Part shown: one piece after another, positions 54,841 through 55,416 of the stretch | How the letters are laid out: each line of letters begins with the position of its first letter | Numbering within the stretch: the first letter of the stretch is position 1 | Assembly: GCA_009838525.1 (NCBI GenBank) | Contig: VXRJ01000034.1 | Span: 124,640 to 188,639 of the forward strand | Length of the DNA stretch: 64,000 nucleotides | Direction: 5' to 3' | Source: Acidobacteriota bacterium | Lineage (GTDB): Bacteria > Acidobacteriota > Vicinamibacteria > Vicinamibacterales > UBA8438 | Position numbers and translations under genes: made by a program | Notes under the pieces: generated by a model | Told to the model about the DNA's origin: nothing | Databases searched by the model: none | The model's input: the letters and a program-made list of their open reading frames with translations, nothing else

Positions 54841-55416
54841 ATGCCCTGGATTCAAACCGTCAGACCCGAGGCGGCCTCAGGCCGCCTCGCCAAGAGCTAC
54901 CGCGCCGGGGTGGAGCGGGCCGGGCGCGTGTTCGGCATCGTACGGACGATGAGCCTGCAGCCGGCGGTGCTGGACGCCTCGATGGGACTCTACGTGGCCA
55001 TCATGAAGCAGCCTGGCGAACTGTCTCTCGCGCAGCGAGAGATGCTGGCCACGGTGGTGAGCCGGGCCAACGACTGCCACTATTGAATGCTGCAGCACGC
55101 AGACGATCTCCGGGTCGAGATCGCACGAGGGGGTGGCGACGCGGGAGTGGCGGACGCCGTGCTCGCGGACTGGCGTAAGGCCCCGCTCGAGCCGGTCGAC
55201 TCGGCGCTGTGCGCCTACGCCGAGAAGCTCACGCGGGACCCCGCGGCGATGACCGAGGCGGACCTGGAGCCTCTACGAGCGGCCGGCCTTGGCGACCGAG
55301 CGATCCACCACGCGATACAGGTCGTTTCTTTCTTCAACTACATCAACCGCGTCGCCGACGCGGTGCACGTCGAACTTGAGCCGGAGATGCCGTCGTACCC
55401 GGACGGTTCGCGGTAG
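54841..55416 (+). CDS. AhpD-like peroxidase-related selenoprotein (in-frame TGA at 55084-55086)
   Basis: 191 codons read through one TGA. The protein matches the carboxymuconolactone decarboxylase / peroxidase-related enzyme family: MPWIQTVRPEAASGRLAKSY, LSLAQREMLATVVSRANDCHY, then TGA, then MLQHADDLRVEI and HHAIQVVSFFNYINRVADAVHVEL at the C-terminus. Family members read N-x-C-x-Y-C at this spot, so TGA replaces the second redox Cys (residue 82), giving C79-H-Y-U82. Both halves are in the same frame and the total length fits the family. A hairpin follows (see 55104). It would reduce peroxides or disulfides. The alternative is a simple nonsense mutation. No sel genes lie in the window. Confidence 0.85.
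55104..55123 (+). promoter_or_regulatory. SECIS-like hairpin downstream of TGA
   Basis: Perfect 7-bp stem CGATCTC / GAGATCG closing a 6-nt loop CGGGTC that contains GGTC, as in the E. coli fdhF loop. The loop begins 25 nt after the TGA, inside the range known for bacterial SECIS elements. Lies within the coding region, as expected for bacteria. Confidence 0.65.

Follow-up and report, generated by a model that had tools for sequence, protein, structure and literature searches.

AhpD-like proteins carrying selenocysteine (Sec, U) in a CxxU motif (COG2128/TIGR01926) have been known since 2005, when 27 sequences were described in the Sargasso Sea selenoproteome (PMC1088965); they appear again as ‘AhpD-like 1’ of GOS 2008, with 299 occurrences (PMC2398784), and under TIGR01926 in Table 1 of a 2026 review (PMC13188914). 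In the related protein PA0269, a relay is formed by Glu36, Cys48, Tyr50, Cys51 and His55, and the accompanying peroxidase activity is weak (PMC3141380). The bacterial SECIS (bSECIS) model, in turn, calls for a loop of 3-9 nt carrying a G at its position 1 or 2, an upper stem of 4-16 bp, a distance of 16-37 nt between UGA and loop, and a minimum free energy (MFE) <= -7.5 kcal/mol (PMC13188914).

The family is thus not new, and the gene at 54841-55416 of our window (the whole stretch of DNA analysed, 64,000 nucleotides) is a further, particular member of it which, judged by the published descriptions, shares the domain family, the CxxU position and a SECIS-like hairpin after the TGA (PMC1088965, PMC2398784, PMC13188914). 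A second family, NF041238 (AhpD_rel_CFYUT; Sargasso Sea hypothetical protein 1), has the same AhpD-type domain and C-x-Y-U motif as the window protein, but its model is 357 positions long as against 191 residues here; the joined protein aligns to the C-terminal half of that model and scores 67.3 bits, well under the curated cut-off of 175, such that on sequence grounds we regard NF041238 as a related but different family.

The interrupted reading frame and its active site

The features discussed below are as follows.

54841..55416, + strand: predicted selenoprotein gene of the AhpD-like (TIGR01926) type, encoding 191 aa between an ATG start and a terminal TAG
55075..55077, + strand: Cys79, presumably the resolving residue of the pair (from the translation and alignment to 6k40_A)
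55084..55086, + strand: internal TGA codon, predicted to encode selenocysteine at residue 82, the U of the C-x-Y-U motif
55104..55123, + strand: predicted bacterial SECIS hairpin (from comparison across genes and published bSECIS criteria)

Under translation table 11, two open reading frames are called here, one running to ...CHY and ending at 55086, the other spanning 55087-55416; both share one phase, in agreement with the initial annotation, which took them for a single gene interrupted by TGA. Read through with TGA as U, the frame gives 191 residues with codon 82 as its sole internal TGA (N-D-C-H-Y-TGA-M-L-Q-H) and ends at TAG, whilst homologues beginning MPWI, MTWI or MAWI support the ATG start at 54841. 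The joined protein matches TIGR01926 (‘peroxidase-related’) at 140 bits against a cut-off of 81.8, with residues 2-181 of 191 covering model positions 1-177 of 178, and it also matches Pfam CMD; it is therefore a full-length member, and the earlier reading that the C-terminal half continues the family sequence at a fitting overall length is borne out. With standard gene calling, this gene and dozens of the relatives identified here come out split or truncated, and part of the peroxide-defence repertoire of these environmental bacteria is, as a consequence, easily overlooked.

The TGA had been suggested to replace the second Cys of a CxxC motif, and alignments to AhpD-like PDB chains agree, placing it on the second Cys of CxYC (‘CVYC’ in the AhpD structure 6k40_A). 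The AhpD relay residues are kept as Glu67, Cys79, Tyr81, Sec82 and His86, with Sec in place of the second Cys, and their spacing equals that of Glu36/Cys48/Tyr50/Cys51/His55 in PA0269, so that the window protein belongs with the proteins bearing a Glu/Cys-x-Tyr-Cys/His relay. These include the sequence relatives of known structure, PDB 6k40, 2oyo, 3c1l and 2o4d (PA0269), which have the same relay but carry a second Cys where the window protein has its predicted Sec.

TGA or cysteine at the active-site codon

Homologues were sought with a Cys-filled query, which carries no bias toward TGA, and in 396 genomes of the phylum all 36 homologues at E<=1e-30 have the in-frame TGA. With TIGR01926 itself as query, matches were found in 107 of the 396 genomes, many with one TGA and others with none. 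The fetched loci yielded 90 distinct active sites, at which the codon is TGA in 72 genes and Cys (TGC/TGT) in 18; Sec and Cys are equivalents at this position. The 72 TGA genes span many families and two phyla, and none has a further stop within -75/+80 codons of the TGA. The claim that a stop at this one catalytic codon lies beyond chance is thereby upheld, as is the expectation that homologues would carry either TGA or Cys there, and the scattered stops that would have told against it are not seen within that span. The 72 Sec and 18 Cys genes also make a good data set on the constraint and movement of coding-region SECIS elements.

The same comparison bears on the idea that translation stops at the TGA and re-initiates at the ATG of 55087 to give two proteins. 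In the window this ATG lies directly 3' of the TGA and coupled re-initiation is conceivable, but only 11 of the 72 TGA genes have ATG there (ATC and ACG are commoner) and the split would part one active site, Cys79 from His86; we consider this explanation extremely improbable.

The downstream hairpin and the selenocysteine machinery

Downstream of the TGA, the segments 55104-55110 and 55117-55123 can pair as a 7-bp stem (CGAUCUC/GAGAUCG) around a 6-nt loop, CGGGUC (55111-55116), which begins 24 nt after the UGA and has G at loop positions 2-3. With its 6-nt loop, 7 bp, 24-nt distance and -9.6 kcal/mol, this hairpin agrees with the published bSECIS model in every respect. Its folding energy is unremarkable against dinucleotide shuffles (z -0.09 for 51 nt, -1.35 for 28 nt), and it is not singled out against a synonymous-codon null (z +0.77); the argument for a SECIS element therefore rests on comparison across genes. 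Rfam at the gathering threshold gave no match anywhere in the window.

That comparison reveals a SECIS-like constraint. At least 6 of the 7 pairs can form in 58 of 72 TGA genes as against 0 of 18 Cys genes (p=1e-10, uncorrected for kinship and with a Cys set made up mostly of distant relatives). Among 27 distinct sequences, picked by protein motif and not by structure, 177 of 189 cells are paired, compared with a mean of 160 and a maximum of 169 over 2000 shuffles that kept relatedness. The outer pair alternates between C-G and G-C (13 and 12 sequences, respectively), a compensatory exchange, and the wobble base of the Asp codon (T/C) tracks the first base (A/G) of the codon with which it pairs. 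Codon choice is skewed as well: Leu is CTC in 60 of 72 TGA genes (34% elsewhere), and Arg is CGT in 38 of 66 (12% elsewhere) and either CGT or CGG in 58 of 66, whilst CGC is commonest elsewhere. The Arg skew is in keeping with a G[G|U] loop consensus for the hairpin class of the window and, in the other class, with a T pairing with the A of the His codon.

These two classes differ in position by about 8 nt, the hairpin lying at +20..+39 from the TGA in the window's clade and at +12..+30 in other clades. Within the first 45 nt after the TGA, L041, L043 and L045 are without the full +20..+39 hairpin and have instead a 7-bp hairpin at +12..+30 with the loop AGGAU; in L026 (2001-2585) all 7 pairs are possible in both registers. 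The strongly conserved Leu CTC codon would thereby lie on opposite sides of the stem, as the 5' arm in one register and the 3' arm in the other. From sequence, this pattern suggests one register shift within the AhpD-like (TIGR01926) family; we hold the chances evenly balanced that its SECIS element has changed register between clades. The greater distance of the hairpin from the TGA in the window's clade, compared with other relatives, is a mildly new point, and a register change, if true, would give a direct view of a coding-region SECIS moving in evolution without loss of function.

The source genome (4.29 Mb, 96.9% complete) contains selA (540.7 bits), selB (304 bits, on an 806-aa frame that also includes the C-terminal part) and selD (308.5 bits), together with a tRNA-Sec scoring 60.6 bits whose anticodon is TCA (= UCA), and so the Sec machinery that a selenoprotein reading calls for is present. 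Across the 396 phylum genomes, with selA called at E<=1e-80, selA is found in 31 of the 36 genomes with a homologue, as against 218 of the 360 genomes lacking one (Fisher p=0.002); for the five carriers without a selA match, tRNA-Sec is above threshold in four, and in the other, G266 (72% complete), neither selA nor tRNA-Sec was detected.

A general reassignment of TGA to Cys or Trp, through a variant code or non-specific readthrough, would likewise leave the frame open; we give it almost no credence, however, given the dedicated UCA tRNA-Sec with selA, selB and selD, and a SECIS-like hairpin that is found in TGA genes and missing from Cys genes. Moreover, the genes of close relatives L021-L027 themselves end in TGA, and TGA is therefore a normal stop there.

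Proposed decoding and chemistry

Synthesising these findings, we consider it almost certain that the product is an AhpD-like (TIGR01926/COG2128) oxidoreductase of the thiol-selenol type with Sec at position 82, directed by SelB and the downstream hairpin. The initial annotation, which took the TGA for selenocysteine, is thus strongly supported by the Cys alignment, the machinery, the TGA/Cys homologues and the bSECIS-type hairpin, from which insertion itself at TGA 55084-55086 is predicted. In our model, SelB with Sec-tRNA(Sec) would bind the hairpin ~24 nt downstream of the UGA, such that Sec is inserted at residue 82 to give the active site Cys79-His-Tyr-Sec82, with Glu67, Tyr81 and His86 as the relay. 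Sec82 would most likely attack peroxide, or exchange electrons with a peroxiredoxin partner, after which Cys79 may resolve it as a selenenylsulfide. This would probably be a selenol version of PA0269 chemistry with Sec82 attacking and Cys79 resolving; the attacking role is given to the second active-site position on the model of M. tuberculosis AhpD. Peroxidase activity and a reducing partner are likewise proposed, and no functional partner was found among the neighbouring genes at the window locus.

Those neighbours encode an NHL-repeat protein, a xanthine/uracil-type permease, a 4'-phosphopantetheinyl transferase and an RND transporter; none is obviously common to the loci of L021 or L022, where the neighbouring genes seem to differ. 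When the window was screened by composition for other coding frames broken by a TGA, none with a recognisable redox motif turned up, and a scan of viral contigs returned a match to a 29-residue fragment only.

Selection, phylogeny and distribution

Purifying selection acts on the gene on either side of the TGA: against L021, L027 and L022, dN/dS is 0.29-0.33 upstream of the TGA and 0.14-0.20 downstream, and the downstream half is therefore selected as protein. A true stop, left by a pseudogene or by a sequencing error in the source genome, would be compatible with a lone in-frame stop in one assembly, but with the TGA recurring in so many genes and both it and the downstream half conserved, this reading was already refuted and has next to no probability.

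On a tree of 88 proteins, Sec and Cys forms cluster strongly, with 4 changes of state as against 15 when the labels are shuffled; the clade that includes the window gene is wholly Sec. Two TGA-containing copies, L132 and L135, branch off outside the main Sec clade and may represent an independent Cys-to-Sec change, with a long branch and unsure placement.

The nearest named relatives are from Vicinamibacteria/Acidobacteria MAGs (76-86% identity), followed by Planctomycetota (~68%), and they point to a source genome of Acidobacteriota/Vicinamibacteria type. The Planctomycetota MAG copies, L023-L026, are nearer to the window gene than other sampled copies from its own phylum, L036-L064 (<=51%), and a close copy is absent from G077, the sole genome of the same family sampled; horizontal transfer or mis-binned contigs may account for both observations. 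Finally, at least two TGA-containing TIGR01926 paralogues per genome occur in G041, G275, G377, G218, G099 and G343.
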